DNA from: Gammaproteobacteria bacterium
GTDB taxonomy: Bacteria; Pseudomonadota; Gammaproteobacteria; SZUA-152
NCBI GenBank assembly: GCA_021647505.1
Contig: JAKIUN010000014.1
Coordinates: forward strand, 1-63,663
Reading direction: 5' to 3'
DNA: 63,663 nucleotides
Part shown: piece after piece, positions 1-19,512 of the stretch
Numbering within the stretch: position 1 is the first letter of the stretch
Layout of the letters: each line of letters begins with the position of its first letter
The notes under the pieces: model-generated
What the model saw: the letters and a program-made list of their open reading frames with translations, nothing else
Databases searched by the model: none
Told to the model about the DNA's origin: nothing
Program-made: the position numbers and the translations under genes

Positions 1-167
1 CATCATGCTTCGGGCATAGGGCAGCACATTCAGGGCAAGGGCCTTCGATATCGGTATACTCGATAGCAATGTCCACTCGCTGCTCTGTTATGTTGAGATC
101 CACGCTGTGGATATCCCACGGGGAATTGACACCCAGTAGCTGGCTGTAATGCTCTTCTATGTCCATG
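1..167 (-). CDS. ISL3-family transposase, N-terminal part only
   Basis: Partial reading frame starting at an ATG (complement of 165-167) and running off the left edge; about 55 residues are visible. The N-terminus MDIEEHYSQLLGVNSPW and the zinc-ribbon motif CPECAALCPKHD are typical of ISL3 transposases, where the zinc ribbon precedes the DDE catalytic domain. The catalytic domain is not in the window, so activity cannot be judged. The product would bind the element ends and catalyse cut-and-paste transposition. Confidence 0.75.
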
Positions 168-239
168 GAAAAAACCGCTCCAATCAATGGCTAAAGCAGG
201 GTATTTTACCGGAATTTCACACAGTTTTACGAAGAGCCT
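1..239 (-). mobile_element. ISL3-family insertion sequence, truncated by the window edge
   Basis: The first 167 bases encode on the minus strand the N-terminus of an ISL3-type transposase, and the probable terminal inverted repeat lies just outside it: GGCTCTTCGTAAAACTGTG read on the minus strand from about 238. GGCTCTTC-like ends are usual for this family. The sequence turns AT-rich immediately beyond 239, as expected for flanking DNA. The rest of the element is outside the window, so the second end and any target duplication cannot be checked. Confidence 0.7.
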
Positions 240-335
240 GCAAAAATAGGCTATTAAGATCATGGCTATATTTAAAAACAATGCGTTAAATGTGACAAAG
301 TAGAAATAACCATGCCATCGAAAAACGCATAACGA
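240..335. other. AT-rich spacer between the IS end and the cas6-like gene
   Basis: Ninety-six bases without a credible gene. It lies downstream of the minus-strand four-gene operon. I see no strong stem followed by a T-run, so no terminator is called. The base composition differs sharply from the GC-rich genes to its right. Confidence 0.5.
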
Positions 336-1010
336 TCAGTCCAGGGCCTGGATTCCCTTATGCGGAATAAACAGGCCGCAGCCCAGCATTCTATGTGGCC
401 CCAATCCCTGTTTCTGTAGTCGCAAGGACTCATCATAATCCAGGTCTGCAATCATCAGGCTGCGGGTCTGCACATCACCCACAGGCGTTTTAATCAGACG
501 CAGGGTGCCACACAACAATTTGCGTGGCTGGATATTCAGTCGTTGCAGTTGACCGGCCACCCAATCCAACAACTGCTCTTCGCTTTCGATATCGTGATCT
601 GTGGCCAGGTGGCGTGCAAATAACGTCGTCAGTACACTTAGCGGCCGCCGTGTGGCGCTTTTCAATACCAGTGGATAAGCACCCACATCCAGCGTCGCCC
701 CTTGCAGTTCCATAGCATCCCCAATGCAATGTTTCGGCACCCTCAGGGCGAATTTAGTACGCCGGGATAACTGCAACAAGTCATCCGGACCTTGCGGCCG
801 TACCCAGCCATTGCCGGACGCAGCACCGTGAATGGTATGCATGCCGGCAAGCGGTTCGCCGGACAACCAGGGCAATACACGCTGTATCGCCTGCGACAGG
901 TCATAGGCATGATCGACCGGCAGACAACGGCAATCGATGCCGAAGACGAGATCGACAACGGCATCACCCACTTCAGGTGGCTCACTGTCTTTATCTTCTT
1001 CCCAGTACAT
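336..1010 (-). CDS. Cas6/Cmx6-like RAMP-fold protein (stand-alone)
   Basis: 224 residues. The sequence fits the Cas6 variant called Cmx6 (I-MYXAN type): an N-terminal VVDLVFGIDCRCLPVDHAY segment, a middle LSRRTKFALRVP strand, and the C-terminal signature ESLRLQKQGLGPHRMLGCGLFIP, which has the glycine-rich loop of RAMP RNA-binding folds. Cas6 proteins normally cut CRISPR precursor RNA, but there is no repeat array or other cas gene in the window. The gene is the last of a four-gene minus-strand operon divergent from dsrA, 15 bp after the helical-protein gene. The conserved histidines and GLG loop suggest an intact RNA-binding fold; cleavage activity is not proven. Family assignment is from memory of the motifs. 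Confidence 0.72.
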   Translation of the reverse strand: MYWEEDKDSEPPEVGDAVVDLVFGIDCRCLPVDHAYDLSQAIQRVLPWLSGEPLAGMHTIHGAASGNGWVRPQGPDDLLQLSRRTKFALRVPKHCIGDAMELQGATLDVGAYPLVLKSATRRPLSVLTTLFARHLATDHDIESEEQLLDWVAGQLQRLNIQPRKLLCGTLRLIKTPVGDVQTRSLMIADLDYDESLRLQKQGLGPHRMLGCGLFIPHKGIQALD

Positions 1011-1025
1011 GGTTTTTCGACCCGT

Positions 1026-1733
1026 CTATTGATCCGGCAAAGTGGCCCAGATGGCCTCACGGTCGACCCACCAGTCTTCCTGTACCAGCACGTCGACGAC
1101 GTTGCGCAGACGCGGCAGGAACTTGGCGGGTTCCGTCAGCTCCATTTTTTCCATCCAGAAGTCGAATTGCTCTTGCTTCTGCACATCACTATGACGACGC
1201 GCGACACTGCCCATCATGTGATTGGTGAACAGCATCAGGTTGTCACGCTGCTTACCCTCAGCACGCAGATCCACCACGTAGTGCGCCACCGCCGCAGCCA
1301 CTGCGGCACCATCGGAGTCCGTCGGTGTTTCATCGATGATGTGCTGTAGCACGGCCACACTCAATTCGGGGTCGATGGGAAAAGTCACCGCCAGCCACAC
1401 TCCCTGTCCCAGCGCCGCCAGTGAATCGGGCTGGTCGGCCATAAACATGATGTTGCAGGCATGCACGACGCCTTCCCATTGAGCTGCTGCGGCAAAGGTA
1501 TCGAAGGCCTCACGGGCGGTATCGAAGGCCGCTTCGCCCTGCTCCAGGTCGATGAGAATTTCTGCAATGCGGTTCTGTATTCCGGCCTTCTGTATGGGCG
1601 CGTAACCAATGGGCAGTTCGGTCAGCTCCCGCTGCGCCACGGCCAGCTCCTGCTGGAGTTTCTCCCTGGAGACGAGGTCTTCATCACCGCTGTCGGCATC
1701 ACGCATGCCGGCCCCTTCATCGAGATATTTCAT
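1026..1733 (-). CDS. Helical repeat-like (TPR-like) protein of the dsr-adjacent operon
   Basis: 235 residues, acidic, rich in alanine, glutamate and leucine. No signal peptide or membrane segment is visible, so it is predicted cytoplasmic. Residues about 20-110 show paired amphipathic helices (a QNRIAEILIDLEQGEAAFDTAREAF-type pattern) resembling tetratricopeptide helices. The C-terminal half is also helical and tryptophan-bearing. I do not recognise a specific family. It starts 2 bp after the stop of the 75-residue gene and ends 15 bp before the cas6-like gene, so all are probably cotranscribed. A scaffold or adaptor role is an inference from fold only. Confidence 0.55.
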   Translation of the reverse strand: MKYLDEGAGMRDADSGDEDLVSREKLQQELAVAQRELTELPIGYAPIQKAGIQNRIAEILIDLEQGEAAFDTAREAFDTFAAAAQWEGVVHACNIMFMADQPDSLAALGQGVWLAVTFPIDPELSVAVLQHIIDETPTDSDGAAVAAAVAHYVVDLRAEGKQRDNLMLFTNHMMGSVARRHSDVQKQEQFDFWMEKMELTEPAKFLPRLRNVVDVLVQEDWWVDREAIWATLPDQ

Positions 1734-1735
1734 GT

Positions 1736-1963
1736 TCAGTCTTCTTCCGTACAGCCATGGGTGGTTCCCATCACCGAATACACGCCGGCGAAGGCACCTT
1801 CGACACGGTCTTCCCAGTTGGCCGGGGTATCGGGGTAATTGGGCTTGATGTCGATCTTGAGGTGGATTTCACCCTTTTTGGCCTGTTCGCCAATGACGTG
1901 AACCAGGTCGTCGAAGGATTCCAGGCCCGGGTTCTGAATCAACAGTTCACTCAGATAAATCAT
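1736..1963 (-). CDS. Small dsr-linked protein, 75 residues (possibly the type some annotations call DsrC-like)
   Basis: 75 residues, begins MIYLSELLIQNPGLESFDDL and contains a KGEIHLKIDIKPNYPDTPANWEDRVE core. A GGAGC ribosome site lies 6 bases before the ATG. Short proteins of this appearance occur next to dsr loci of sulfur oxidisers and, as I recall, some annotations call them sulfur relay protein DsrC. The true DsrC is encoded at 7011-7343, and this protein lacks its C-terminal arm with two cysteines; only one cysteine (in THGCTEED) is present near its C-terminus. I see no alignment with DsrC. It sits between the dioxygenase and helical-protein genes with 2-14 bp gaps. Function unknown. 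Confidence 0.6.
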   Translation of the reverse strand: MIYLSELLIQNPGLESFDDLVHVIGEQAKKGEIHLKIDIKPNYPDTPANWEDRVEGAFAGVYSVMGTTHGCTEED

Positions 1964-1977
1964 GCTTGCTCCAATGG

Positions 1978-2886
1978 TTATTCGCCGGTCGACGGCCCCA
2001 CACGCTGATAAAACCGCGCACGATACATCAGCCGCCCCTGCCCGGCGGGTGCATCGTCGTCAAAGGCGCTGCGGCTGTGCAGCACATTGTTGCAGATCAC
2101 ACCCTGGCCGGCAGCCAGCCGGTGACGGAAACTCTGCGGCGAATCCTCCGCCAGCACGGCCTCCAGCGCTCGTACCGCGGCCTGCGTGTCGGCATCCTGT
2201 TTCCACTCGATGGAACGGGTACGTGCGGTGTAGCGCATGTGCAGTTTGCCGCTCTGCGCATCCACGGAGAACACCGCTCCACTCTGCAACGAGCGGATCT
2301 CGACACCTGCTTCCACGTTAGCAGGAATGGTCATCACATCTGGCTGCATCAAGGCGGCAATGTAGTGTGGATTTTCGTCACGCAGACGAATATAGGCGAT
2401 CTCGTGATCCAGCAGCCTGTTTTCACCGCCCTGCGCCGCCGGGCGTACGCAGTGCAGTACCATGCCGAGCACCCGATGCTGCGGCAAATTATAGTAGCCG
2501 TCCGTGTGCCAGCTGATGGCGTGGTTGCTATAGGGAATGTATGCGTACCGGCGGCGCTGGGCCGACACCTGCAAGGCCGAGATACCGTCGTCATCGGCAT
2601 ACAGATGGCAATCCAGATCGCGCAGCCCGCACTGTACACCCAGATCCGTCAGCAGGGTCTTGTCCTGGGCCTCGCCGGGATGCGCCAGCGTATAGACGGC
2701 CATATTGGCGCGCTCACAGGCCCGCAATATCGCCGTATGCTCGACCTCGGTCAGCGCGCGCGGGTTTTCAACGGGCACCACCAGTTCATCCAGACTGACA
2801 GGATAGTTCACCAGCTTGCGCTCCCGCCAGGCACCGTAGGTCTGCACAGCATCGAGATCGAAGGGACTGTTGTCTTTTTGTACCAT
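1978..2886 (-). CDS. TauD/TfdA-type Fe(II)/2-oxoglutarate-dependent dioxygenase
   Basis: 302 residues from the chosen ATG, which gives the N-terminus MVQKDNSPFDLD; an in-frame ATG 54 bases upstream is possible. The iron-binding triad is visible: H-x-D in SWHTDGYYN and the distal histidine in NNVLHSRSAF. RLMYRARFY supplies the arginine that holds 2-oxoglutarate. The fold is that of taurine, gamma-butyrobetaine or clavaminate-type hydroxylases; the substrate is unknown. It is the first gene of the four-gene operon and is divergent from dsrA, suggesting a role around organosulfur compounds or modification of a sulfur carrier, but that is inference. Confidence 0.82.
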   Translation of the reverse strand: MVQKDNSPFDLDAVQTYGAWRERKLVNYPVSLDELVVPVENPRALTEVEHTAILRACERANMAVYTLAHPGEAQDKTLLTDLGVQCGLRDLDCHLYADDDGISALQVSAQRRRYAYIPYSNHAISWHTDGYYNLPQHRVLGMVLHCVRPAAQGGENRLLDHEIAYIRLRDENPHYIAALMQPDVMTIPANVEAGVEIRSLQSGAVFSVDAQSGKLHMRYTARTRSIEWKQDADTQAAVRALEAVLAEDSPQSFRHRLAAGQGVICNNVLHSRSAFDDDAPAGQGRLMYRARFYQRVGPSTGE

Positions 2887-3356
2887 GGTTCGTTTCCACA
2901 GGGTTCCGCACGAACGTTCCCCGAGATGGATGCCAGCCAAGCAGGTGACCTACACCCCGAATTATTAGCATATGCTTATATTGGCAGTATTTAACATAAC
3001 AAATACTCGGCGATAGGCAACACCACATCAGGGATAGATGCACCCACTCCAGCAGTGATGAAAATGAAACGTCAACAGACCCTTGCCAATGATCGTCACA
3101 CATTCCGCGTGGGCATGAAAAGCCTGCCCACCCTACCTGACTTGGTATCCCGAACAATTCGTCAGACTATTACCTAAGGGATAGCCCTGTCCCTTTGACC
3201 CCTCCCCTTTGACCCATTGCGCCTTGACATGAGTGCCATAGACTTCAGACAGTCATAGGCTGACCATTTGTATGGCTTCCCGGGAAGTCAAAAAAACAGA
3301 GTGGTCTGATAATACGCCGGAAAGGCTGCGAAATTTAAAACCAGGAGAAACGGGCA
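2887..3356. promoter_or_regulatory. Divergent control region between the dioxygenase operon and dsrA
   Basis: 470 bp without a credible gene. It holds a half copy of the GTAGGGTGGGCA repeat family (3107-3137), two exact direct repeats CCCTTTGACCC at 3191-3201 and 3205-3215 (14 bp apart) and a TTGACA hexamer at 3224-3229 that could be a -35 box. I do not find a good -10 box at 16-18 bp from it, so the promoter itself is not assigned. The dsrA ribosome site AGGAG lies at 3343-3347. Confidence 0.5.
3107..3137. repeat. GTAGGGTGGGCA-family palindromic repeat, half element
   Basis: Reads GCGTGGGCATGAAAAGCC then TGCCCACCCTACC. It matches the right half of the complete copies at 14699-14775 and 25284-25365, including the CGTGGGCATGAAAAGCCTG stretch. 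The left half is absent. It sits in the dsr control region. Confidence 0.8.
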
Positions 3357-4664
3357 ATGGCCGAGCAAACCCCCAAGAATCCCGAGAAGCACAGTACCTA
3401 TCTCCCCAAGGAGAAAATCTCCACCAAGCCATTGCATGCTACCCCGATGCTGGACAAGCTTGAATCCGGCCCCTGGCCAAGCTTTGTGACCGGCCTGAAA
3501 CGTCTCGCCATGGATAACAACATGATGGTGGATCTGCTGGGTCAGCTGGAGCACTCCTACGAGACCCGCCTGGGGTACTGGAAGGGGGGGACGGTCTCCG
3601 TATTTGGTTATGGCGGTGGCATCATTCCCCGCTTTACGGAACTGATGGACAAAGACGGTAAGCCCCTGTTTCCCGAGGCCAGGGAATTTCACACCGTGCG
3701 AGTGCAGCCGCCGGCCGGCAACCACTACTCCACCGACATGCTACGCCAGCTGTCCACGTCCTGGAACAAATACGGCTCCGGTCTCATCGCCTTCCACGGC
3801 CAGACCGGCAACATCATGTTCATCGGTACCACCACCAAAAATACCCAACCCTTCTTCGACGAGATCAACAGCTATGGCTGGGATCTCGGCGGCGCGGGCC
3901 CCTGCGTGCGTACCGGCATGTCCTGCGTCGGCGCCGCCCGTTGCGAACAGTCCTGCGCCAACGAGCAGAAGATTCATCGTCTGCTGGTGAACAATTTCCT
4001 CGACGACATGCACCGCCCGGCCCTGCCCTACAAATTCAAATTCAAGGTCTCCGGCTGTCCCAACGACTGCATGAACTCCATTCAGCGCTCCGACTTTGCC
4101 GTCATCGGCACCTGGCGTGACGACATGCAGGTCGACCAGGAAGAGGTGAAAACATTTGTCGCCGACAAAGGCCGTGACTATGTGGTCGAGAATGTTGTCA
4201 ACCTCTGCCCCACCAATGCCCTGAGTCTCAACAGCGACGACACCCTCAAGGTCGATAACCGCAACTGTGTACGCTGCATGCACTGTATCAACGTAATGAC
4301 CAAGGCACTCTCTCCCGGCAACGACAAAGGCGTCACCATCCTCCTCGGCGGCAAACGCACACTGAAGATCGGCGATCTGATGGGCACCGTCCTGGTGCCC
4401 TTCATGAAGCTGGAGACCGAAGAGGATTATGAGCGTATCGTCGAGCTGGCCGAAGAGATCATCGATTTTTGGGCCGAGAACGCCCTCGAACACGAACGCG
4501 TCGGCGAGACCATCGACCGTATTGGTCTGGCCAATTTCCTCGAAGGCATCGAACTTGAGGTCGACCCGCACATGATCAGCGAAACACGCCAGAGCAGCTA
4601 CGTGCGCATGGACACCTGGGATGAAGAAGCCGAAAAATGGAAACAACGACAGGCAACGGGTTAG
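3357..4664 (+). CDS. dsrA: Reverse dissimilatory sulfite reductase, alpha subunit
   Basis: 435 residues, cytoplasmic. DsrA with DsrB forms the siroheme enzyme that in sulfur oxidisers oxidises sulfane sulfur carried by DsrC to the sulfite level. The siroheme/[4Fe-4S] cysteines are Cys190 and Cys196 (C-X5-C) and Cys234 and Cys238 (C-X3-C in SGCPNDCMN). An inserted ferredoxin domain follows (Cys284, 304, 307, 310). Its length and N-terminus fit DsrA of Allochromatium-type bacteria. The start is fixed by AGGAG nine bases upstream. First gene of a co-directional operon; dsrB follows after 63 bp. Association with dsrEFH, dsrL and sulfur-oxidiser gene order indicates the oxidative type. Confidence 0.97.
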   Translation: MAEQTPKNPEKHSTYLPKEKISTKPLHATPMLDKLESGPWPSFVTGLKRLAMDNNMMVDLLGQLEHSYETRLGYWKGGTVSVFGYGGGIIPRFTELMDKDGKPLFPEAREFHTVRVQPPAGNHYSTDMLRQLSTSWNKYGSGLIAFHGQTGNIMFIGTTTKNTQPFFDEINSYGWDLGGAGPCVRTGMSCVGAARCEQSCANEQKIHRLLVNNFLDDMHRPALPYKFKFKVSGCPNDCMNSIQRSDFAVIGTWRDDMQVDQEEVKTFVADKGRDYVVENVVNLCPTNALSLNSDDTLKVDNRNCVRCMHCINVMTKALSPGNDKGVTILLGGKRTLKIGDLMGTVLVPFMKLETEEDYERIVELAEEIIDFWAENALEHERVGETIDRIGLANFLEGIELEVDPHMISETRQSSYVRMDTWDEEAEKWKQRQATG

Positions 4665-4727
4665 CCTGCGGATCGCCCAATGGTATAGCCGACAAAAATC
4701 AGACAGGAATTATTGGAGATTAACCCG

Positions 4728-5801
4728 ATGAGCGAGAAACCGAGCTTCCCCATTGAGAGCGGCGTACCCGACCCCTTTCAATACATGCACCCAACCTATA
4801 TTAAAAACTTCGGTAACTGGAAGTACCATGAACGCCCACGTCCCGGCGTGCTGCGTCACGTCGCCAAGAGTGGTGATGAAGTATGGACCGTGCGCGTCGG
4901 TACCCAGCGTCAACTCGGGCCCTACGAGATCAACCTGCTGTGCGACATCATCGACAAGTATGCCGATGGCTATGTGCGCTTCACTATCCGTTCCAACATG
5001 GAAGTCAGCGTCACCGACGAAGCCAAGGTCGGGCCGTTGATCCGGGCCTTCGAAGACGCCGGCTATCCAGTAGGTGGTACCGGCCCTTCCGTGACCATGA
5101 TCTCCCATACCCAGGGTTGGCTGCACTGCGACATCCCCGGCACCGACGCCTCCGGCGTGGTCAAGGCGCTGATGGATGAACTGCACGACGAGTTCACCGC
5201 AGAGAAAATGCCCAACCGTGTGCACATCACCACCTCCTGCTGCCAGATCAACTGCGGTGGCCAGGGCGACATCGCCATCAATATTCAGCACACCAAACCA
5301 CCGAAAATCAATCACGACCTGGTGGCCAACGTCTGTGAACGCCCCTCCGTGGTCGCCCGCTGTCCGGTCGCCGCCATCCGCCCGGCGATCGTCAACGGCA
5401 AGCCCTCACTGGAAGTGGATGAAAAAAAATGTATCTGTTGCGGCGCCTGCTTCCCGCCCTGTCCACCCATGCAGATCAATGATCCCGAACACTCCAAACT
5501 GGCCATCTGGATCGGTGGCAAACACTCCAATGCACGCAGCAAGCCCATGTTCCATAAGCTGGTCGCTGCCGGCATCCCCAACAATCCACCGCGCTGGCCC
5601 GAGGTATCCGAAGTCGTCAAGAATATCCTCTCCATCTACAAAGACGACGCCAAGGACTGGGAACGTATCGGTGACTGGGTCGAGCGCATCGGCTGGCCAC
5701 GTTTCTTCGAGCTGACTGAGCTGCCGTTCACCAAGTTCCACGTCGAGAACTGGCGCGGTGGCCGTCATACCCTCAACGCCTCAGCACACATCCGTTTCTA
5801 A
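4728..5801 (+). CDS. dsrB: Reverse dissimilatory sulfite reductase, beta subunit
   Basis: 357 residues from ATG 4728 (ribosome site TTGGAG just upstream; an in-frame TTG at 4713 is less likely). Partner of DsrA in the alpha2-beta2 enzyme. Cysteines of the siroheme-side cluster are seen in TTSCCQINCGG (Cys171, 172, 176) and RCPVAAIRP (Cys212); the ferredoxin insert is ICCGACFPPCPP (Cys235, 237, 238, 241, 245 region). The region YVRFTIRSNMEV is the typical nitrite/sulfite reductase half-domain. Sits between dsrA and dsrE, with a 35-bp gap to dsrE. Confidence 0.97.
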   Translation: MSEKPSFPIESGVPDPFQYMHPTYIKNFGNWKYHERPRPGVLRHVAKSGDEVWTVRVGTQRQLGPYEINLLCDIIDKYADGYVRFTIRSNMEVSVTDEAKVGPLIRAFEDAGYPVGGTGPSVTMISHTQGWLHCDIPGTDASGVVKALMDELHDEFTAEKMPNRVHITTSCCQINCGGQGDIAINIQHTKPPKINHDLVANVCERPSVVARCPVAAIRPAIVNGKPSLEVDEKKCICCGACFPPCPPMQINDPEHSKLAIWIGGKHSNARSKPMFHKLVAAGIPNNPPRWPEVSEVVKNILSIYKDDAKDWERIGDWVERIGWPRFFELTELPFTKFHVENWRGGRHTLNASAHIRF

Positions 5802-5836
5802 GAGGTATTGTCAATGACTAAGGTCGGAGGAATCGC

Positions 5837-6229
5837 ATGAAGTTTTCAATCCTGGTCAGTGAAGGGCCTTATACGCATCAAGCGGCAGATACGGCCTACA
5901 ATTTCACCAAGGCCGCGCTGGAGAAGGGGCACGATATCTATCGCATCTTTTTCTATCACGACGGCGTCAACAACGGCACACGCCTGACCACCCCGCCACA
6001 GGACGATCGCAACATCGTCAATCGCTGGTCGACGCTGGCGCAAGAGCACGAGCTTGATCTCGTGCTGTGTGTGGCGGCGGCCCAGCGCCGTGGCATCGCC
6101 GATGCCGACGAGGCCAGGCGCAACGGCAAGGATGCCGACAATATTGCAGCGGGGTTCCGCATTTCCGGTCTTGGCCAACTGATTGACGCCGGTATCGAGT
6201 CCGACCGTCTCATTACCTTCGGCGATTAA
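5837..6229 (+). CDS. dsrE: Sulfurtransferase subunit DsrE
   Basis: 130 residues. With DsrF and DsrH it forms a cytoplasmic hexamer homologous to TusDCB that passes sulfane sulfur to DsrC. The active cysteine is Cys78 in DLVLCVAAAQRRG, the same position as the essential cysteine known in Allochromatium DsrE. The N-terminus MKFSILVSEGPYTHQ is typical of the family. A GGAGGAATCGC ribosome site precedes the ATG. Presence of dsrEFH marks the operon as oxidative. Confidence 0.96.
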   Translation: MKFSILVSEGPYTHQAADTAYNFTKAALEKGHDIYRIFFYHDGVNNGTRLTTPPQDDRNIVNRWSTLAQEHELDLVLCVAAAQRRGIADADEARRNGKDADNIAAGFRISGLGQLIDAGIESDRLITFGD

Positions 6230-6239
6230 GGGGAGCGTT

Positions 6240-6641
6240 ATGTCCAAGCGTTTTTTATACGTCAACCGCAAGGCGCCCTACGGCACCATTTATGCCCTGG
6301 AGTCACTGGAAGTGGTCTTGATCGGCGCCGCCTTCGAGCAGGATGTCAGCCTCGCCTTTCTCGACGATGGCGTCTTCCAGCTCACTCGGGGCCAACAGAC
6401 CAACGAACTGGGTGTGAAGAATTTTTCGCCGACCTACAAGGCCCTGGGTGACTACGACGTCAACAAGATTTACGTTGAAAGAGAATCCCTGCAAGCCCGT
6501 GGCCTGACCCTGAACGACCTGCTCCCCCTCACCTACGAGGACGAAGACGACGACTGGGCGGAAAAGGATTCCATCAAGCTCGTCAGTGCCGCCGAACTTG
6601 CCGAAATCATGGAAGCCCAGGATGTGGTTCTAAGTTTTTAG
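6240..6641 (+). CDS. dsrF: Sulfurtransferase subunit DsrF
   Basis: 133 residues from ATG 6240, chosen because GGGGAG lies directly upstream and the protein then begins MSKRFLYVNRKAPYGT like other DsrF/TusC proteins; a longer frame would read back into dsrE. It is a structural member of the DsrEFH hexamer and lacks a conserved catalytic cysteine, as expected for DsrF. The acidic segment YEDEDDDWAEKD is near the C-terminus. Ten bp separate it from dsrE and 13 bp from dsrH. Confidence 0.95.
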   Translation: MSKRFLYVNRKAPYGTIYALESLEVVLIGAAFEQDVSLAFLDDGVFQLTRGQQTNELGVKNFSPTYKALGDYDVNKIYVERESLQARGLTLNDLLPLTYEDEDDDWAEKDSIKLVSAAELAEIMEAQDVVLSF

Positions 6642-6654
6642 AGAGAAATGACCG

Positions 6655-6957
6655 ATGCTACATACCGTGAATAAATCACCCCTGGATCGCAATGCACTGG
6701 AATCCTGTATCCAGCATGCGGTGAAAGGCAGTGCCGTACTTCTCATTGAAGACGGTGTTTATGGCGCCATGCAGGGTACACAAAAATCGCCGATGGTGGA
6801 AAATGCCATGAAAGAGGTTTCCTTCTACGTGATCGGGCCTGACCTCAAGGCGCGTGGCATCGATGAAAGCCGTATCATCGACGGCATCCATGTTATCGAT
6901 TACAGCGGCTTCGTGGATTTGGTGGCAGAATACGACAAGACCCAGTCCTGGCTCTGA
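6655..6957 (+). CDS. dsrH: Sulfurtransferase subunit DsrH
   Basis: 100 residues, the TusB-like third member of the DsrEFH complex. Begins MLHTVNKSPLDRNALESC; Cys18 matches the single conserved cysteine of the family (near residue 20). Ends in the DYSGFVDLVAEYDKTQSWL pattern common to DsrH/TusB. Located directly after dsrF and 53 bp before dsrC. Confidence 0.95.
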   Translation: MLHTVNKSPLDRNALESCIQHAVKGSAVLLIEDGVYGAMQGTQKSPMVENAMKEVSFYVIGPDLKARGIDESRIIDGIHVIDYSGFVDLVAEYDKTQSWL

Positions 6958-7010
6958 TTCAGCCAGATTATTATTCAAATAGACACTAGACAGATAGAGG
7001 AGAGACCGAT

Positions 7011-7343
7011 ATGGCCCTGGAAGTAAATGGAAAAAGCGTTGCCGTCGACGAAGAAGGCTATCTCGAAAATCGTGATGACTGGGATATGGATATCGCCAAA
7101 GCAATTGCCAAGGAAGAAGGCCTGGACATGTCCGACAGTCATTGGCAAGTGGTCAACTTCCTACGCGAATACTATGACGAATATCAGATTGCCCCTGCCG
7201 TTCGTGTGCTGACCAAGTCCATCGGCAAGAAACTGGGCAAGGACAAGGGTAACAGCAAGTATCTGTACGAACTGTTTCCCTACGGCCCGGCCAAGCAGGC
7301 CTGCAAGATCGCCGGCCTGCCCAAGCCTACCGGCTGCGTCTGA
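7011..7343 (+). CDS. dsrC: Sulfur carrier DsrC
   Basis: 110 residues. DsrC carries sulfane sulfur or a trisulfide between DsrEFH, DsrAB and DsrK. Both conserved cysteines of the flexible C-terminal arm are present, Cys98 and the penultimate Cys109 (QACKIAGLPKPTGCV), the arrangement required for trisulfide chemistry. A strong AGAGGAGAGACC ribosome site precedes the ATG, consistent with the high level of DsrC relative to its partners. A 270-bp inverted-repeat element lies just downstream, before dsrM, and could separate dsrC mRNA from the distal operon. Confidence 0.98.
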   Translation: MALEVNGKSVAVDEEGYLENRDDWDMDIAKAIAKEEGLDMSDSHWQVVNFLREYYDEYQIAPAVRVLTKSIGKKLGKDKGNSKYLYELFPYGPAKQACKIAGLPKPTGCV

Positions 7344-7349
7344 TTCATC

Positions 7350-7619
7350 CTAGTGTGGTGTAACGTATAAAGGGTACAAACCAGAGGCCCGCAAATGCCG
7401 CAAGACAAGGCGCAGTTCGCAGTTAATGGTTCTTCCCTTAACAAGGACTGCAACGCAGGATTGGGGCATTTGCGGGCCTCCCTCCGGGCGCGGCGGGAAG
7501 CCGTCATCTGCGGCGTTGCGTCTCTTGAAAAGGGCACACCATTCCCTGCGAGACGCGCCTTGCAGCTAACGGCTTCCCGCCACGCTGATCTGTGCCCTTT
7601 ATACGTTACACCACACTAG
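7350..7619. repeat. Cloverleaf-like inverted-repeat element (MITE-like) between dsrC and dsrM
   Basis: 270-bp element with perfect 25-bp terminal inverted repeats (7350-7374 and 7595-7619; the outer end reads CTAGTGTGGTGTAACG). Inside are two further perfect inverted repeats: 16 bp at 7384-7399 with 7465-7480 (GAGGCCCGCAAATGCC) and 13 bp at 7492-7504 with 7569-7581 (GGCGGGAAGCCGT). The second arm also contains GCGTCTC/GAGACGC. The whole can fold as a stem with two branches. No transposase is encoded. It begins 6 bp after the dsrC stop. Confidence 0.9.
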
Positions 7620-7670
7620 ACCAACCACCTCCCTGCCCTCTGGGCGGGGAGGTATTGTTGAGGTTTATTC

Positions 7671-8399
7671 ATGCTTCTTTCCGTGGTTTTCGCCATCTTG
7701 TTTTATGCCGCCACCCTCCTGTTGATTGTGGGTGTGGCACGCAAGATCGCGGTCTATGCGCGGACCCCCGCGCCACTAAAAATCCCGGTCACCCCGGCAC
7801 CCCTGACCCGGGCCGGCGTGGTTTGGCGTATGACCAAAGAAGTCACCTTATTCCGCAGCTTGTTCTTTGCCAACAAGTGGATCTGGCTGTTTGGCTGGAT
7901 GTTTCATGTCGCGCTGGCCCTGGTGCTGGCCCGCCACCTGCGTTATTTCACCGAGCCTGTGTGGGGCTGGGTCGTTCTCATTCAGCCGTTTGGAAAATAT
8001 GCTGCATTCGCCATGATCGCCGGTCTCGCCGGCCTCTGGGCACGTCGTTTCCTGGTTGATCGCGTGCGTTATATCAGCAGCCCTTCCGACCACCTGATGC
8101 TCGCCCTTCTGATGGCCATCGCCCTCAGCGGACTGGCTATCAAGTACCTGTCACACACGGATATCGTCCATATCAAGGCCTACATGCTGGGCCTGATGTA
8201 TTTCGACTGGCAGCCGCTACCCGCCGATGGTTTCGTGTTATTGCATTTCACCCTGGTCATTGTCCTGATGGTGGTGTTCCCGATCAGCAAGCTGCTGCAT
8301 GCACCCGGCATGTTTTTCGCCCCCACCCGCACCCAGATCGACGATGCACGTGAAGTTCGTCACACCGCGGGCTGGACAGCAAAGAGCACCGCAGAATAA
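7671..8399 (+). CDS. dsrM: DsrM, membrane cytochrome b subunit of DsrMKJOP
   Basis: 242 residues with about five membrane helices, the first at residues 4-22. DsrM resembles the haem b subunit of respiratory nitrate reductase (NarI-like) and exchanges electrons between DsrK and the quinone pool. Candidate haem-ligand histidines are His79, His89, His141 and His192. A TTGAGG ribosome site lies just upstream of the ATG. It is separated from dsrC by the cloverleaf-like element and followed 17 bp later by dsrK. Confidence 0.94.
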   Translation: MLLSVVFAILFYAATLLLIVGVARKIAVYARTPAPLKIPVTPAPLTRAGVVWRMTKEVTLFRSLFFANKWIWLFGWMFHVALALVLARHLRYFTEPVWGWVVLIQPFGKYAAFAMIAGLAGLWARRFLVDRVRYISSPSDHLMLALLMAIALSGLAIKYLSHTDIVHIKAYMLGLMYFDWQPLPADGFVLLHFTLVIVLMVVFPISKLLHAPGMFFAPTRTQIDDAREVRHTAGWTAKSTAE

Positions 8400-8416
8400 C
8401 AACGAGGTCGTATGAC

Positions 8417-9922
8417 GTGGCAAAGACAAGTTTCGATACCCCGGCACTGAAACCGCACCAGGAAACGCCGGATCTGCCGACCGTTAAACCCGGGGCGATG
8501 CAGTATCTCAAGACCTTTCCGGCCAAACCGATTCACAACGAGAATATCGGCTATCCCGGCGAGCTGGTTGAAGACTGGCAGAATAAGGCCGTCAAACGCC
8601 TTGGCGAACTGGTCGAGGGCTCACAGGCCCTGCGCGTGTTTCTCGACACCTGCGTCAAATGCGGCGCCTGTACCGACAAGTGCCACTATTTCCTCGGCAC
8701 TGAAGACCCACTGAACATGCCCGTTGCCCGTCAGGATCTGCTGCGCAGCGTCTACCGCCGTTATTACACCTTTGCCGGCAAACACTTTCCCAAGCTGGTC
8801 GGCGCCAAGGATTTCGACAAACCGATGCTGGACGACTGGTACAACTATTTTCACCAGTGTTCCCAATGTCGCCGCTGCTCCGTGTTCTGCCCCTACGGTA
8901 TCGACACCGCCGAGATTTCCATGGCCGCGCGCGAGATCATGGACTCCATCGGTGTGGGCCAAAAATACTGCAATGAAATCCTCGCCAAGGTGCACAAAAT
9001 CGGTAACAATCTCGGCCTGCCAGAGCCCGCGTTGGTCAACACCCTGGAGGGCCTGGAAGAGGACGTCGAAGAAGATACCGGCGTGCTGGTGCGCTTCCCG
9101 GTGGATCAAAAGGGCGCCGATGTGCTGCTGATCACACCGTCGGCCGATTTCTTCGCCGAGCCCCATATCGATGGATTGATCGGCTATGGCAAGGTGTTTC
9201 ACCAGGCAGGCATCAGCTGGACGCTAAGTTCCCACGCCTCCGAGGCCGCCAACTTTTCCATGTTCATCGGCAGTAACGATAACTTGAAAAAGACCGCCAT
9301 GCGCATCCGTGAAGCCGCCCTTGAGCTGGGCGTCAAGCGCATCATTGTCGGTGAATGCGGCCATGCCTGGCGCGTCGCCTACAGTTTCTGGAATACCCTC
9401 ATCGGTCCGTTCGATTTCCTCGATCCCAAGTATCCCGCACCACAGCACATCGTTGAATTCACTTACGACCTGATCCAGCGTGGCGCCCTCAGCCTGAATA
9501 AGGAAGCCAACGACCATCGCCGCATCACCTTTCACGATTCCTGCAACGTGGCGCGTGCCTCACGCATGGGCAACATACCCGGCGGTCAATTCATCCTGCC
9601 GCGCGAGGTGATCAAGGCTGCGGCCAACCACTTTTTTGACATGGCCCCTGACACCATCCACGAAAAGACTTTTTGCTGTGGTGGTGGTGGTGGCCTGCTC
9701 ACCGATGATCTGATGGAACTGCGGGTCAAGGGCGCGATGCCGCGTATGCAGGCTTTGAAACAGGTAGTGGACGAAAATGACGTCAACACCCTGGTGGCCA
9801 TCTGCGCCATCTGCAAGACACAGTTTGCCAAGACCCTGCCCTACTACCAATTCCAGGGCGACATGATAACCAGCCTGCACGAAGTGGTTGGCGACGCCAT
9901 CCAGTTGGATACCAAAAATTAA
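8417..9922 (+). CDS. dsrK: DsrK, HdrD-like iron-sulfur subunit of DsrMKJOP
   Basis: 501 residues, GTG start after AACGAGG; a nearby ATG at 8412 is in another frame. Cytoplasm-facing catalytic subunit thought to reduce or oxidise the DsrC trisulfide/disulfide. Two [4Fe-4S] motifs: Cys79/82/85/89 and Cys148/151/154/158. CCG-domain cysteines follow at Cys314, Cys376, Cys420-421 and Cys463/466, as in heterodisulfide reductase subunit D. It sits directly after its membrane partner dsrM. Confidence 0.95.
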   Translation: MAKTSFDTPALKPHQETPDLPTVKPGAMQYLKTFPAKPIHNENIGYPGELVEDWQNKAVKRLGELVEGSQALRVFLDTCVKCGACTDKCHYFLGTEDPLNMPVARQDLLRSVYRRYYTFAGKHFPKLVGAKDFDKPMLDDWYNYFHQCSQCRRCSVFCPYGIDTAEISMAAREIMDSIGVGQKYCNEILAKVHKIGNNLGLPEPALVNTLEGLEEDVEEDTGVLVRFPVDQKGADVLLITPSADFFAEPHIDGLIGYGKVFHQAGISWTLSSHASEAANFSMFIGSNDNLKKTAMRIREAALELGVKRIIVGECGHAWRVAYSFWNTLIGPFDFLDPKYPAPQHIVEFTYDLIQRGALSLNKEANDHRRITFHDSCNVARASRMGNIPGGQFILPREVIKAAANHFFDMAPDTIHEKTFCCGGGGGLLTDDLMELRVKGAMPRMQALKQVVDENDVNTLVAICAICKTQFAKTLPYYQFQGDMITSLHEVVGDAIQLDTKN

Positions 9923-10048
9923 AACTAAATTGAAACTGACACAGCAGGGGTGAACCAGCAACGTTGATTTGGTGGACGACGCTCACCCTGCAGTCTGTAG
10001 AAATAAACATAGAACGACCTAACACCAGTGGATTAGGAGACTGGCACG

Positions 10049-12025
10049 ATGGCAACACCGGCAGATAAACTGAAACAAGCACATACCTTCCGCAAATTCG
10101 AGGATGGCGACAGCACGCATATCCCCTGGGCGCAGCAGATTTTTTCGGCCGATACCAGCCACAAGTGTCCCACCTACCTGTTACAGACCCCACCCTGTCA
10201 GGGCAGCTGCCCGGCCGGTGAAGATATTCGTGGCTGGCTCGACATCGTGCGCGGTATGGAAAAACCCGCCGCTAATATGGACTGGCGTGAATATGCCTTC
10301 CGTCGTTCTACCGATGCCAACCCCTTCCCCTCGGTGATGGGCCGCGTCTGTCCCGCCCCCTGCGAGGAAGGCTGCAACCGCAATGAAGTGGAAGACTTCG
10401 TCGGCATCAATGCCGTCGAGCAGTTCATCGGCGACACCGCGCTGGACAATGGCTACACCTTTGAGCCCGGCGCCGACACCGGCAAGAAGGTCGCCATCAT
10501 CGGCGGTGGCCCCTGCGGCCTGTCCGCAGCCTACCAGCTACGCCGCATGGGCCACGCCTGCACCGTGTTCGACGACCACGAAGACCTCGGCGGCATGATG
10601 ATGTACGGCATCCCCGGCTACCGTACCCCGCGTGACGTGCTGCACGGCGAAATGAATCGCATCATCGACATGGGCGTCGAGACCCGCCTCAATACCCGCG
10701 TCGGCCGCGACGTCAGCCTGGAAGAACTGGAGAAGGACTTCGACGCCATCCTCTTCGCCATCGGCGCGCAGAATGGCCGTGACCTGCCCATTCCTCATTT
10801 CAAAGAGGCCAGCAACTGCCTGTCCGGCATCGCCTTCCTCGAAGCCTTCAACCGTGGCCATCTCAAGGCTGTGGCCGGCAAGGTGTTGGTGATCGGTGGT
10901 GGCGACACCTCCATCGACGTCGCCTCCGTGGCCCGCCGTCTCGGCAAGGTCGAGGCTCTTAGCGATACGGCCCGGGTCGAAAACGTCATCGCCAGCGGCA
11001 AAGAACAAGCCCTGCCGACCGATGCCCGGCACATCAGCGTCGACGTCACCCTGCTGTCCCGCCGTCCCATCGCCGACATGACTGCCTCACAACACGAAGT
11101 GGACGACGCCACCCGCGAAGGCATCGAGATCATCGGCTTGGTGGCCCCACTGGAAATCATCATGGGCGACGACGGCCGCGCCAAGGCCCTGCGCGTGCGC
11201 AAGCTGAAGGAGGAAAACGGCAAGATGGAGGCCATCGAAGGCTCCGAATACGAGATCAAAGCCGACATCATTGTCGCCGCCATCGGTCAAACCGGTCGCT
11301 TCGATGGCATGGAAGGCCTAGCCAACGAACGCGGCCTCATCGACGCCGACAAGAATTTCCAGATACCCAACAAAGAAGGCTATTTCGTCGCCGGCGATAT
11401 CGTCCAGCCGCACCTGCTGACCACCGTCATCGGCCAGGCCTCGGTCGCCGCCGAAAGCATCGATCACTACCTGAAACATCAGGCGCAGGGCAAGCGGCCC
11501 AAGGTCGACGTGCACCACTTCGACCTGTTGAAAAAATTGCAAGAGACCCATCTGGAACCGGAAAAATTCCAGCCGGAAGGTGACGCGCATACCCGAGGCA
11601 TCGACCGTGGCCGCCGCGGTACCGCCGAGGCCGGCTTCGCCATCCACAACTTCGAGGATCGCTCGGCCTATTCCATCGTTTCCGCCGATGAGCTGTTCCT
11701 CGGCCACTTCGAGTACGAACCACGCCACAAACGTAAGGAAGACGTACCGGACGCCAGCGAGGTACTGGGCCACTTCGAGGAGCGCGTGCAGGCCTTGCCG
11801 GAAGAAGAAGTGGTGGCCGAGGCCGGTCGCTGCATGAGCTGCGGCATGTGCTTTGAATGCGACAACTGCGTCATCTACTGTCCACAAGATGCCGTGCACA
11901 AGGTAAAGAAAGACAAGTACACCACCGGCCGTTATGTGGAAACCGACTACACCCGCTGCATCGGTTGTCATATCTGCGCCGACGTCTGCCCCACCGCTTA
12001 CATCAAGATGGGCCTGGGCGAATAG
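10049..12025 (+). CDS. dsrL: DsrL, NAD(P)H-linked iron-sulfur flavoprotein
   Basis: 658 residues, GltD-like. An N-terminal cysteine cluster (Cys40, 50, 54, 101, 105, 109) is followed by an FAD-binding segment AIIGGGPCGLSAAY (about 149-162), a second nucleotide-binding region around VLVIGGGDTSIDVA, and a C-terminal two-cluster ferredoxin domain (CMSCGMCFECDNC and CIGCHICADVCP). In sulfur oxidisers DsrL transfers electrons from DsrAB to NAD+ and is essential for sulfur-globule oxidation. Its C-terminal ferredoxin extension marks it as the form found with oxidative Dsr. 126 bp separate it from dsrK. Confidence 0.96.
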   Translation: MATPADKLKQAHTFRKFEDGDSTHIPWAQQIFSADTSHKCPTYLLQTPPCQGSCPAGEDIRGWLDIVRGMEKPAANMDWREYAFRRSTDANPFPSVMGRVCPAPCEEGCNRNEVEDFVGINAVEQFIGDTALDNGYTFEPGADTGKKVAIIGGGPCGLSAAYQLRRMGHACTVFDDHEDLGGMMMYGIPGYRTPRDVLHGEMNRIIDMGVETRLNTRVGRDVSLEELEKDFDAILFAIGAQNGRDLPIPHFKEASNCLSGIAFLEAFNRGHLKAVAGKVLVIGGGDTSIDVASVARRLGKVEALSDTARVENVIASGKEQALPTDARHISVDVTLLSRRPIADMTASQHEVDDATREGIEIIGLVAPLEIIMGDDGRAKALRVRKLKEENGKMEAIEGSEYEIKADIIVAAIGQTGRFDGMEGLANERGLIDADKNFQIPNKEGYFVAGDIVQPHLLTTVIGQASVAAESIDHYLKHQAQGKRPKVDVHHFDLLKKLQETHLEPEKFQPEGDAHTRGIDRGRRGTAEAGFAIHNFEDRSAYSIVSADELFLGHFEYEPRHKRKEDVPDASEVLGHFEERVQALPEEEVVAEAGRCMSCGMCFECDNCVIYCPQDAVHKVKKDKYTTGRYVETDYTRCIGCHICADVCPTAYIKMGLGE

Positions 12026-12039
12026 GCCGGCAACCACGG

Positions 12040-12480
12040 ATGACACACAGACCACAATCGAGCGTGAAACCGGGAGCACGGGTGGTGAAACGCTATGGGT
12101 TCCCCCTCTTGATGATCCTGCTGCTGACGGCTGGCGCACCGGCGCTCGCCGCTACCCCGCTGCCGGACATCCCCAAGGCCATCAAGGGTGAACAGTGCGT
12201 GGAAGACACCGGGTTCATGCGCCGCAACCACATGACGCTGCTCGAACACCAGCGTGATGACACCGTGCAACGCGGCATTCGCAGCAAAAAGCATAGCCTG
12301 AAACACTGTTTCACCTGCCATGTGGTGAAGGATGATGACGGCCAACCGGTCACGGCCGAGGATCCGCGCCACTTCTGCCGCGCATGCCACGACTATGCGG
12401 CCGTGCAGGTGGACTGCTGGCAGTGCCACGTTTCCACCCCCGAACCCTCAGCAACGTCGGTGAAGGGAGTACAGCCATGA
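12040..12480 (+). CDS. dsrJ: DsrJ, periplasmic tri-haem cytochrome c
   Basis: 146 residues from ATG 12040. An uncleaved anchor or signal segment lies at about 20-38 (YGFPLLMILLLTAGAPALA). Three haem c motifs: Cys90-Cys93-His94, Cys113-Cys116-His117 and Cys126-Cys129-His130. Cys53 (EQCVED) corresponds to the residue that gives the unusual His/Cys haem ligation known for DsrJ. Starts 14 bp after dsrL and overlaps dsrO by 4 bp (ATGA), indicating translational coupling. Confidence 0.93.
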   Translation: MTHRPQSSVKPGARVVKRYGFPLLMILLLTAGAPALAATPLPDIPKAIKGEQCVEDTGFMRRNHMTLLEHQRDDTVQRGIRSKKHSLKHCFTCHVVKDDDGQPVTAEDPRHFCRACHDYAAVQVDCWQCHVSTPEPSATSVKGVQP

Positions 12481-13247
12481 GCAATAAAAAAGCCATGAGC
12501 GGCAATCAGATCGACCGTTACCGTCGCCGTTTTCTCGCCCAGAGCGCCGCCATCGCCGGTGCAGCAACACTGGGCGGCGGCCTCGTGCTCACCCGCGTGG
12601 CGCATGCGCGTCCCGCCGACCAAGCGGTCAACAGCGACAAGCGCTGGGGCCTGCTCATCGATGCCGGCAAGTGCGCCAATGACTGCGACGAATGCGTCAA
12701 GGCCTGTGAAATGGAGCACGGCTGGGGGCGTGGTAGTAGCGACGAACAACACTCATCCCCCGAACAAAAGGCCCAGTGGATCCGCAAGGTCACGGTACGC
12801 GACCGCACCACTGGCCACGAAACCTCGTTACCCATGATGTGTCAGCACTGCGCCTATCCACCCTGCGTGGACGTCTGCCCCACTGGCGCCTCCATGAAGC
12901 GTGATGACGGCATCGTGCAGGTGGACAAGCACCGCTGCATCGGCTGCCGTTACTGCATGATGGCCTGCCCCTACAAGGCGCGTTCCTTTATCCATGAAGA
13001 CCTGCACGCACAGAAGACCGAATCGCCGCGAGGCAAAGGCACGGTGGAGAGCTGCAACCTGTGCGTCAATCGCGTCGACCGCGGCGAAAACCCGGCCTGT
13101 GCCGACGCCTGCCCGGAAAAAGCCATCCTGTTCGGCGATCTCAAGGATGCCAACAGCGAGATCGCCCGACGCCTGGCCAGCGAGCCAAGTACCGAGATCC
13201 GTGGCGATCTACGCCTCGACCTGGGCGTGCGGTATCAGGGTATTTGA
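12477..13247 (+). CDS. dsrO: DsrO, Tat-exported periplasmic ferredoxin subunit
   Basis: 256 residues from ATG 12477, which overlaps the dsrJ stop. The twin-arginine signal YRRRFLAQSAAIAG lies at residues 15-28, with probable cleavage after AHA near 44. Four cysteine clusters follow, including DCDECVKACEMEH, MCQHCAYPPCVDVCP, CIGCRYCMMACPY and CNLCVNRVDRGENPACADACP, the set expected for an HybA/NrfC-type electron carrier. Works with DsrP and DsrJ on the periplasmic side. A MITE-like element follows. Confidence 0.95.
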   Translation: MSNKKAMSGNQIDRYRRRFLAQSAAIAGAATLGGGLVLTRVAHARPADQAVNSDKRWGLLIDAGKCANDCDECVKACEMEHGWGRGSSDEQHSSPEQKAQWIRKVTVRDRTTGHETSLPMMCQHCAYPPCVDVCPTGASMKRDDGIVQVDKHRCIGCRYCMMACPYKARSFIHEDLHAQKTESPRGKGTVESCNLCVNRVDRGENPACADACPEKAILFGDLKDANSEIARRLASEPSTEIRGDLRLDLGVRYQGI

Positions 13248-13261
13248 CGAGGGCGTGACTA

Positions 13262-13413
13262 TTCGCCACAGAGGCACAGAGCACACAGAGAATGCATTGA
13301 TGTGATAAAAGCCGGAAAAAAACGTGGTGAGCGGATCGGGATCCTGCTTCTTTCCGTCAGCGAATGATTCCAACTATCCAGTCCCTCCGTGTACTCCGTG
13401 CCTCTGTGGCGAG
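13262..13413. repeat. MITE-like element with CGCCACAGAGGCAC ends between dsrO and dsrP
   Basis: 152-bp element. The left end TTCGCCACAGAGGCACAGAG (13262 onward) and right end (13385-13413) form a 29-bp inverted repeat with about four mismatches. No coding sequence. The same termini occur at 20185-20357 and, decayed, at 29504-29584 and 55165-55195. It splits dsrO from dsrP. Confidence 0.85.
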
Positions 13414-13470
13414 TTGAACTGTTACACGAAGACCAACAAGCGTTAAAGCAGCTAAATCGAGAGTTAAACC

Positions 13471-14688
13471 ATGAAACCAACCACCTTTCGTGAGATTTCC
13501 GGTGACAGCACCGGCTACTGGGCGCTGCTGGGCTTGCTGGGACTAATAATCGCCGCCGGTCTGGGTGCCGCCTGGTACATGGAGCACAACGGCCACTGGG
13601 TTACCGGCATGAACAACCAGATCGTCTGGGGCATGCCGCATGTATTCGCCGTGTTCCTCATCGTCGCCGCCTCCGGCGCGCTCAATGTCGCCTCCATGGC
13701 CTCGGTGTTTGGACGCACCGCCTTCAAGCCCCTGTCACGTCTCTCCGGCCTGCTCGCCATCGCCCTGCTGGCCGGCGGCCTGATGGTGCTGGTACTCGAC
13801 CTGGGGCGTCCCGACCGCCTGATCATGGCCATGATGAACCTCAATTTCATGTCCATCTTCGCCTGGAACATTATTCTCTATAACGGTTTTTTCGTCATCG
13901 TCGCGGTCTATCTGTGGACCCTGATGGAACGCCGTGGAAACCGTTTCACCAAGAGTGCCGGCCTGTTTGCCTTCCTCTGGCGTCTGATTCTCACCCTGGG
14001 TACCGGCTCCATCTTTGGTTTCCTGGTCGCTCGCCAAGCCTATGACGCCGCCATCATGGCGCCCCTGTTCATCGCCCTGTCCCTCTCCTTCGGCCTTGCC
14101 ATCTTCATGCTGGTGCTGTTCGCCAGCTACCGCGGGTGTGGACGCCCCCTCGGCGATGACATGATCATTCGCATGCAACGCCTGCTCGGCCTGTTCGTGG
14201 TCGCGGCATTGCTTTTCGTCATCGCCTACCACCTCACCAACCTGTATGCCGCAGAACACCGTGACGTGGAGCGGTTCATCCTTGACGGCAACAATGTCTA
14301 CAGTGGCCTGTTCTGGGTGGGGTATGTCCTGCTCGGCAGCCTGATCCCCATGGCCATTGCCTGGTTCGCTCCCTTCCGCGCCTCCCTTGGCTGGGCCAGC
14401 ACCGCCGCCGTGCTGGTGGTGACCGGCGGGATGGCCATGATCTACGTGATTATCATTGGCGGACAGGCCTATCCTTTACAATTGTTTCCGGGCAAGGAAG
14501 TCAGCAGTAGTTTCTTCGATGGCGTAGTCAGCCCCTACACACCCAGCCTGGCGGAAACCCTGCTGGGCATTGGCGGCGTCGGCGTCGCGCTGGCCATCGT
14601 GGTAGTCGGTATCCGCCTGCTCAAATTTTTGCCCCTGAGCCTGGAAGATGCCAAAGTTGATCCACACTACAAAGCGGATAAGGTGTAG
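13471..14688 (+). CDS. dsrP: DsrP, NrfD-type integral membrane subunit
   Basis: 405 residues with about ten hydrophobic helices and very few charged loops, matching the NrfD/PsrC quinone-interacting family. DsrP is thought to exchange electrons between menaquinone/ubiquinone and DsrO/DsrJ. The segment MVLVLDLGRPDRLIMAMMN, with the LGRP motif, is typical of this family. The gene is separated from dsrO by the MITE-like element, and repeat elements also follow it. Confidence 0.94.
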   Translation: MKPTTFREISGDSTGYWALLGLLGLIIAAGLGAAWYMEHNGHWVTGMNNQIVWGMPHVFAVFLIVAASGALNVASMASVFGRTAFKPLSRLSGLLAIALLAGGLMVLVLDLGRPDRLIMAMMNLNFMSIFAWNIILYNGFFVIVAVYLWTLMERRGNRFTKSAGLFAFLWRLILTLGTGSIFGFLVARQAYDAAIMAPLFIALSLSFGLAIFMLVLFASYRGCGRPLGDDMIIRMQRLLGLFVVAALLFVIAYHLTNLYAAEHRDVERFILDGNNVYSGLFWVGYVLLGSLIPMAIAWFAPFRASLGWASTAAVLVVTGGMAMIYVIIIGGQAYPLQLFPGKEVSSSFFDGVVSPYTPSLAETLLGIGGVGVALAIVVVGIRLLKFLPLSLEDAKVDPHYKADKV

Positions 14689-14698
14689 CCCAAGCCAT

Positions 14699-14775
14699 GT
14701 AGGGTGGGCACGTTTTTTGTGCCCACGCGGTTGGCGCATATTCCACGTGGGCATGAAAAGCCTGCCCACCCTACC
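14699..14775. repeat. GTAGGGTGGGCA-family palindromic repeat, complete copy
   Basis: 77-bp element bounded by GTAGGGTGGGCACG and CTGCCCACCCTACC in inverted orientation, with internal GTGCCCACGCGG and CCACGTGGGCAT halves. It starts 10 bp after the dsrP stop. A copy with the same architecture lies at 25284-25365. Confidence 0.88.
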
Positions 14776-14856
14776 GGGGTTTTGTGGGAAATCCTCAGAG
14801 ATTGAAGTAACAGCGTAGAACTATTCGAAGCACGGCGATCAAGGGACAAGCCCATC

Positions 14857-14878
14857 GCGGGCATGGCCCGCTCCTACA
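14857..14878. repeat. REP-like palindrome GCGGGCATGGCCCGC
   Basis: Reads CGCGGGCATGGCCCGCTCCTAC: a GCGGG/CCCGC stem followed by CTCCTACA, the form seen in many gammaproteobacterial REP sequences. It is a single copy in this window and distinct from the GTAGGGTGGGCA family. It lies in the 264-bp gap between dsrP and the TrpD2-like gene. Confidence 0.6.
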
Positions 14879-14952
14879 CGACTCCGTGGTTCATGTCATA
14901 GAATGGGCTAAAATCAACGCTCACAAAGCACCCTTCAACTCCGGAAAACACT

Positions 14953-15954: not shown

Positions 15955-15977
15955 TCGTCGCGGGGCCAACGCCTGCC

Positions 15978-17390: not shown

Positions 17391-17415
17391 TAATGGTGGG
17401 CGATGCCCACCCTAC
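17350..17415. repeat. GTAGGGTGGGCA-family repeat overlapping the dsrN 3' end
   Basis: Left half GTAGGGTGGGCACTGCCCACC (first bases at 17350) and right half GGTGGGCGATGCCCACCCTAC (ending at 17415) form an inverted pair about 66 bp long. The left half is translated as the DsrN tail and supplies the sequence up to its stop codon; the right half lies in the dsrN-dsrR gap. Confidence 0.85.
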
Positions 17416-17458
17416 AAATTCCACTGCCTATCGAAAAACATAACCTAGAGTAGAGACT

Positions 17459-17800: not shown

Positions 17801-17811
17801 GTACGGATCCG

Positions 17812-19467: not shown

Positions 19468-19512
19468 CATCCTGCAGCCTGTGTACTGCGGGTCACATTG
19501 ACGGAGCATTCA

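Follow-up and report, generated by a model that had tools for sequence, protein, structure and literature searches.

Why should a gene for a protein of the Cas6 family stand beside the genes of dissimilatory sulfur oxidation? Among the principal ways in which sulfur is oxidised by marine and vent bacteria and by thiotrophic symbionts is the dsr pathway, whose complement of genes is generally taken to be known. The window analysed here is an entire gammaproteobacterial contig of 63,663 nucleotides (G000:C36:1-63663), its left side being the contig end. Close to that end lie four minus-strand ORFs (336-1010, 1026-1733, 1736-1963 and 1978-2886) with gaps of 2-15 bp, divergent from dsrA, which starts at 3357; this tight layout, first described from the letters of the sequence, is confirmed.

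A Cas6-family protein in an operon divergent from dsrA

The first gene of the divergent operon (1978-2886, minus strand) codes for a TauD/TfdA-like 2-oxoglutarate dioxygenase (PF02668 TauD, 71.9 bits against a cut-off of 27). It is followed on the same strand by genes for a 75-aa protein, p75 (1736-1963), and a 235-aa helical repeat protein (1026-1733), whose AlphaFold2 model is all alpha at low confidence; neither of these two products recovered a family above cut-off in profile searches. The fourth gene (336-1010, minus strand) codes for the 224-aa Cas6-family (RAMP) protein that we call dsr-Cas6. Across the intergenic region 2887-3356 lies dsrA, to which the operon is tied (3357-4664, plus strand; alpha subunit of the oxidative dissimilatory sulfite reductase), followed by the remaining dsr genes in the order B, E, F, H, C, M, K, L, J, O and P (4728-14688, plus strand), named by homology and order.

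The sequence-only reading had assigned the product of 336-1010 to the Cas6 superfamily, and this assignment is borne out by two families scoring above their curated cut-offs, namely PF09559 Cas6 (198.2 bits versus 26.7) and TIGR02807 cas6_cmx6 (116.9 bits versus 98.85). PADLOC likewise called it a Cas6-family protein, and its profile matched one solved member of the family, the Cas6 of a type I-B CAST (PDB 8FCJ_B, E 8e-25). The AlphaFold model, built from five close sequences, is weak (pLDDT 54); its top fold match is again a Cas6 (8fcu_B, 3e-6, TM about 0.3), and the predicted order of strands and helices in this same low-confidence model is compatible with two tandem ferredoxin-like (RRM) domains. 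The protein is a genuine member of the Cas6 family.

By both profile and fold, the type I-B CAST Cas6 proteins (PDB 8FCJ and related entries) are the best solved relatives; they form part of a transposon-linked Cascade, whereas the dsr-type protein stands alone beside dsr. The Cas6/Cmx6 proteins of type I-MYXAN (I-B) systems, for instance those on cyanobacterial plasmids, belong to the same Pfam and TIGRFAM families and are 26-29% identical to the dsr type, with which they share the G-rich loop and a DH motif containing His34. Five of six Cmx6 loci encode CRISPR Cas proteins (cas3, cmx8 or cas8a1), and the sixth, from Gloeobacter, has no other cas gene within 12.6 kb. What sets the dsr type apart from these is the absence of a CRISPR context and of the helix-1-end histidine, together with an insertion that contains W69.

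Coupling to dsr and independence from CRISPR

We searched 369 Gammaproteobacteria with the window's Cas6-like protein and DsrA as queries. An orthologue of the former, at 36-81% identity, was found in single copy in 118 genomes (the copy of G264 being split into two matches), and strong DsrA matches in 120. Both genes were present in 112 genomes, the Cas6-like gene alone in 6, dsrA alone in 8 and neither in 243. The Fisher p of 2e-76 for this co-occurrence is uncorrected for relatedness and hence overstated; the tally covers many families and genera. Where the two genes share a contig, 83 of 85 pairs are divergent, 0.57-4.4 kb from dsrA, the exceptions being two genomes of one family (G109 and G325) in which they are 41 or 517 kb apart. 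All 12 single-contig dsrA-positive genomes of the class sample carry the Cas6-like gene. A phylum-wide draw added three more dsrA-positive members of the class (G569, G596 and G620), each with a copy of 37-38% identity that is the divergent neighbour of dsrA across a gap of about 0.4-0.6 kb, and in the same draw none of 31 dsrA-positive genomes from other classes had the gene. Most of the genomes with only one of the two genes are fragmented assemblies, and the gene found lies at a contig edge in some of them (dsrA in G110 and G207, the Cas6-like gene in G127); therefore, several of these cases may be assembly gaps. The trees of the Cas6-like protein and DsrA have 23 of 73 splits in common, as against 0.18 in shuffles. 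The gene is also kept in five genomes of 1.0-1.1 Mb from two families (G039, G287, G142, G255 and G351), which we take, on size alone, for reduced thiotrophic symbionts or their relatives, and which retain the tauD, p75, cas6, DsrC-like and 68-aa genes. Thus, far from occurring mostly without dsr, as it might have done had the proposed link been spurious, the Cas6-like gene is a standard, fixed accessory of dsr in Gammaproteobacteria as GTDB defines them, with the former beta lineages probably included.

The 118 neighbourhoods of the gene define the make-up of the operon. The order of transcription is the tauD-like gene (81 copies in the 118 loci), a gene for a protein of 60-75 aa (p75, 86 copies), in some lineages the 235-aa helical protein, the Cas6-like gene, and then two short genes, one DsrC-like (about 113 aa) and one of 68 aa. 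Downstream of the 68-aa gene, a hairpin resembling a terminator is enriched. The helical protein is encoded in the operon in about 44 of the 118 loci and elsewhere in the genome in others; p75 is in the operon in most carriers and also lies beside dsrA in some Alphaproteobacteria. In the genome of the window, the DsrC-like gene, rspA, is found at the start of another contig (C94, 458-796), whereas in four close relatives it directly follows the Cas6-like gene. Bases 2-187 of the window (minus strand), at the contig end, look to us, by their sequence, like the start of an ISL3-type transposase; this stretch had no Pfam match at E 1. Given the displaced rspA, an IS element is the likeliest cause of the split and has probably separated the Cas6-like gene from rspA and the 68-aa gene here.

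Among five dsr loci from other classes (L181-L185), which we take to be probably alphaproteobacterial, four (L182-L185) carry a tauD-like gene in divergent orientation to dsrA; p75 comes next in most of these and a DUF6967 gene is present in some, and none of them has the Cas6-like gene. Hence, the latter was apparently added to a dsr accessory operon that already existed, the link between the dioxygenase and dsr looking older than that of Cas6. In G620 a single fused protein (L188 1728-2615, minus strand) combines DUF6967 (PF22295) and the Cas6-like part, a hint that they might act together. To the left of the operon, genes for the Sfum_1244 family (DUF6866), the Alvin_2107 family of sulfur-globule proteins and PKHD-type dioxygenases recur in many dsr genomes (L036-L152), forming a wider accessory neighbourhood of dsr.

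The family to which the protein belongs raises the alternative that it is a crRNA-processing Cas6 acting in trans on CRISPR arrays elsewhere in the genome. The genome of the window does possess a type I-G CRISPR-Cas system on contig C38 (L207, L208), with cas3g, csx17, csb1, csb2 and cas4g/cas1g; however, this system has its own Cas5-Cas6 fusion, Csb2, alongside a Cas4/Cas1 fusion followed by two copies of the 36-nt repeat GTTATCCGTGGCAAAACGCCACGGCCTCATTGAAGC. Furthermore, of 40 carriers 21 have no Cas1, among them closed genomes and those of 1.0-1.1 Mb, and the presence of the Cas6-like gene follows dsrA. We therefore regard the action in trans as very improbable. The PF09559 model matched only dsr-type proteins in 166 Gammaproteobacteria, and the recurrent neighbours in the 118 loci, whose singleton neighbours were scanned in part, are dsr and accessory genes rather than cas genes. 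As had been proposed, the Cas6-like gene works outside CRISPR; it is independent of it and no stray cas gene. Use of Cas families outside CRISPR loci is described for solo Cas4 and Cas1-solo in two earlier studies (PMC5704561, PMC9939771). These genes are largely tied to mobile elements, whereas the dsr-type protein is tied to an energy-metabolism operon. It follows that a gene automatically annotated as CRISPR Cas6 in many Gammaproteobacteria is no CRISPR gene; tallies of CRISPR that rely on PF09559 or TIGR02807 are affected accordingly.

The DsrC paralogue and the conserved residues of the Cas6-like protein

The DsrC-like neighbour, for which we use rspA, presumably the name given to Cys-less DsrC proteins, is a member of PF04358 and TIGR03342, the same families as DsrC/TusE. 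Its product ends in GLPESRRKGGY or similar, usually without the cysteine of DsrC: 82 of 90 copies adjoining the Cas6-like gene are devoid of cysteine over their final 30 residues; a few copies have one cysteine at another site, and two of the 90 represent a second, single-Cys copy. Of 74 DsrC-family copies on the plus strand, by comparison, 67 show the two-Cys pattern. In DsrC, the residue that bears the sulfur is the penultimate cysteine, Cys111 (PMC3397948). Since the C-terminal cysteine is usually missing, the rspA-type paralogue, to judge from its sequence, cannot carry sulfur the way DsrC does.

For the Cas6-like protein itself, we compared 117 dsr-type sequences with six plasmid-borne cyanobacterial Cmx6 proteins, five of them from CRISPR loci. 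The C-terminal G-rich loop of the RAMP fold, before the last strand (G202, G204, G210, C211, G212 and F214), is kept in the dsr, beta-like and CRISPR types, and two arginines, R84 and R90, are invariant in the 117 dsr-type sequences. His34, directly after strand 1, is present in 116 of the 117 and in all six CRISPR-type relatives. Conversely, helix 1 ends in a histidine in five of the six relatives and in 8FCJ, and nearly all dsr-type proteins have another residue there. His58 (110 of 117 dsr types), a candidate for the catalytic histidine, was dropped, as none of the six CRISPR-type relatives has it while His34 is common to both groups. Active sites of Cas6 proteins vary, and one crenarchaeal Cas6 has no histidine at all (PMC3652601). 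Given this variability and the retention of the G-rich loop, R84, R90 and His34, RNA binding has likely been retained, and RNase activity may have been lost in view of the missing helix-1-end histidine. The gene is under purifying selection, with dN/dS of 0.165-0.185 between the window's copy and those of four relatives.

The same residues bear on the possibility that the RAMP fold has been turned into a non-RNA part, such as a scaffold or a factor that helps to assemble the Dsr enzymes, acting with the DsrC paralogue and the dioxygenase. The lost helix-1-end histidine would fit such a role, as would conserved partners that are sulfur-relay-like and enzymatic rather than RNA-related. Nevertheless, a pure scaffold need not keep the G-rich loop, His34, R84 and R90, all of which persist across the 117 sequences, and we consider this reading unlikely.

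We instead posit, at about an even chance of being correct, that the Cas6-like protein serves the Dsr pathway as an accessory which binds and possibly cuts RNA, and that it operates outside CRISPR and together with the DsrC paralogue. Its role as a non-CRISPR dsr accessory is favoured by the family, the near one-to-one occurrence with dsrA, the conserved operon, purifying selection, the independence from CRISPR, and the G-rich loop with His34; against the proposal as a whole stand the lack of an RNA partner among our results, the missing helix-1-end histidine, the distant location of the gene in G109 and G325, and the weak AlphaFold model. That the protein binds RNA is inferred, as is its partnership with the DsrC paralogue, for which gene order is the sole basis. 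On this proposal, the protein would still bind, and possibly cut, a cellular RNA, and would probably act together with the products of the other operon genes, chiefly the mostly Cys-less DsrC paralogue. The paralogue could dock, without carrying sulfur, on DsrAB, DsrEFH or another partner of DsrC, and the pair would then link an RNA required by the pathway, be it the dsr mRNA, a small RNA or a tRNA, to the state of the Dsr machinery.

Junction hairpins and the candidate RNA

The hairpin-rich dsr transcript had been suggested as the target, and we accordingly scored hairpin strength by z score at the internal junctions of the dsr operons (L035-L152). Strong hairpins follow dsrA and dsrC (median z about -2.6), with z below -2 in 60% and 64% of operons, as opposed to only 1-16% at the other internal junctions. 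Their stem sequences are not conserved. These hairpins occur in Gammaproteobacteria and partly in other classes, and are possibly step-down or mRNA-protecting elements. No enriched RNA structure emerged across relatives in the divergent region 2887-3356 or upstream of tauD, and Rfam returned nothing convincing for positions 1-20000 of the window.

A more specific alternative is that the Cas6-like protein acts on the dsr mRNA as an RNase or chaperone: it would recognise the dsrA and dsrC hairpins and, through the processing or protection of transcript ends, determine how much DsrAB and DsrC is made relative to the membrane proteins. Cas6 proteins are classically hairpin binders, and the hairpins stand out at exactly two internal junctions; moreover, in three genomes (G109, G325 and G255, too few to test) a protein without His58 coincides with a missing dsrA hairpin. 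However, the dsrA hairpin is present in four of the five alphaproteobacterial operons that have no Cas6-like gene, and a strong dsrC hairpin in two gammaproteobacterial operons from genomes, both drafts, without a Cas6 match. Conversely, the five genomes of 1.0-1.1 Mb have lost most of the operon hairpins while keeping the gene, and the variable stems offer no shared sequence. This alternative thus appears improbable to us. The hairpins do not track the gene, and their proposal as its target, or as an obligate one, is unsupported; occurring without the gene and mostly lost in small genomes that have it, they are better read as general features of dsr mRNAs, at which a role for the Cas6-like protein is possible.

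The element between dsrC and dsrM (7344-7670, 327 bp), which had been counted as part of the target, fares no better. It is self-complementary and has 10 matches in the genome, including itself and its own reverse complement, which leaves about eight partial matches elsewhere; in a close relative (L032) the gap is only about 65 bp. It has probably inserted into the dsr operon in the manner of a MITE or REP element and lies outside the conserved system; as a multicopy repeat absent from that relative, it was ruled out as a conserved RNA target.

Returning to the RNA-binding accessory that we prefer, the persistence of the gene in 1 Mb genomes without most operon hairpins would favour a constitutive role in expression or maturation over fine-tuning at those hairpins. 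A bolder version, which we advance tentatively and deem somewhat less probable than its opposite, is that gammaproteobacterial sulfur oxidation needs a dedicated RNA-protein system, in which an exapted Cas6 and a mostly Cys-less DsrC paralogue would bind a cellular RNA and control or mature the Dsr machinery. If true, a CRISPR processing protein would have been domesticated for core energy metabolism. So constant a companion from an RNA-processing family implies that either the dsr pathway has a missing RNA step or the RAMP fold has found a new use, and we take the CRISPR-independent Cas6 companion of dsr as a pointer to a step of microbial sulfur oxidation that is related to RNA and has so far gone undescribed. 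No publication linking Cas6 to dsr was found among open-licence PMC papers, and a large study of Dsr protein synteny makes no mention of Cas6 or TauD (PMC10504309).

As a separate observation, nine loci (L153-L157, L161, L162, L167 and L169) represent second, separate copies of dsrAB. Within the fetched stretches these have no dsrE and no close dsrC, and several display a strong hairpin after dsrB.
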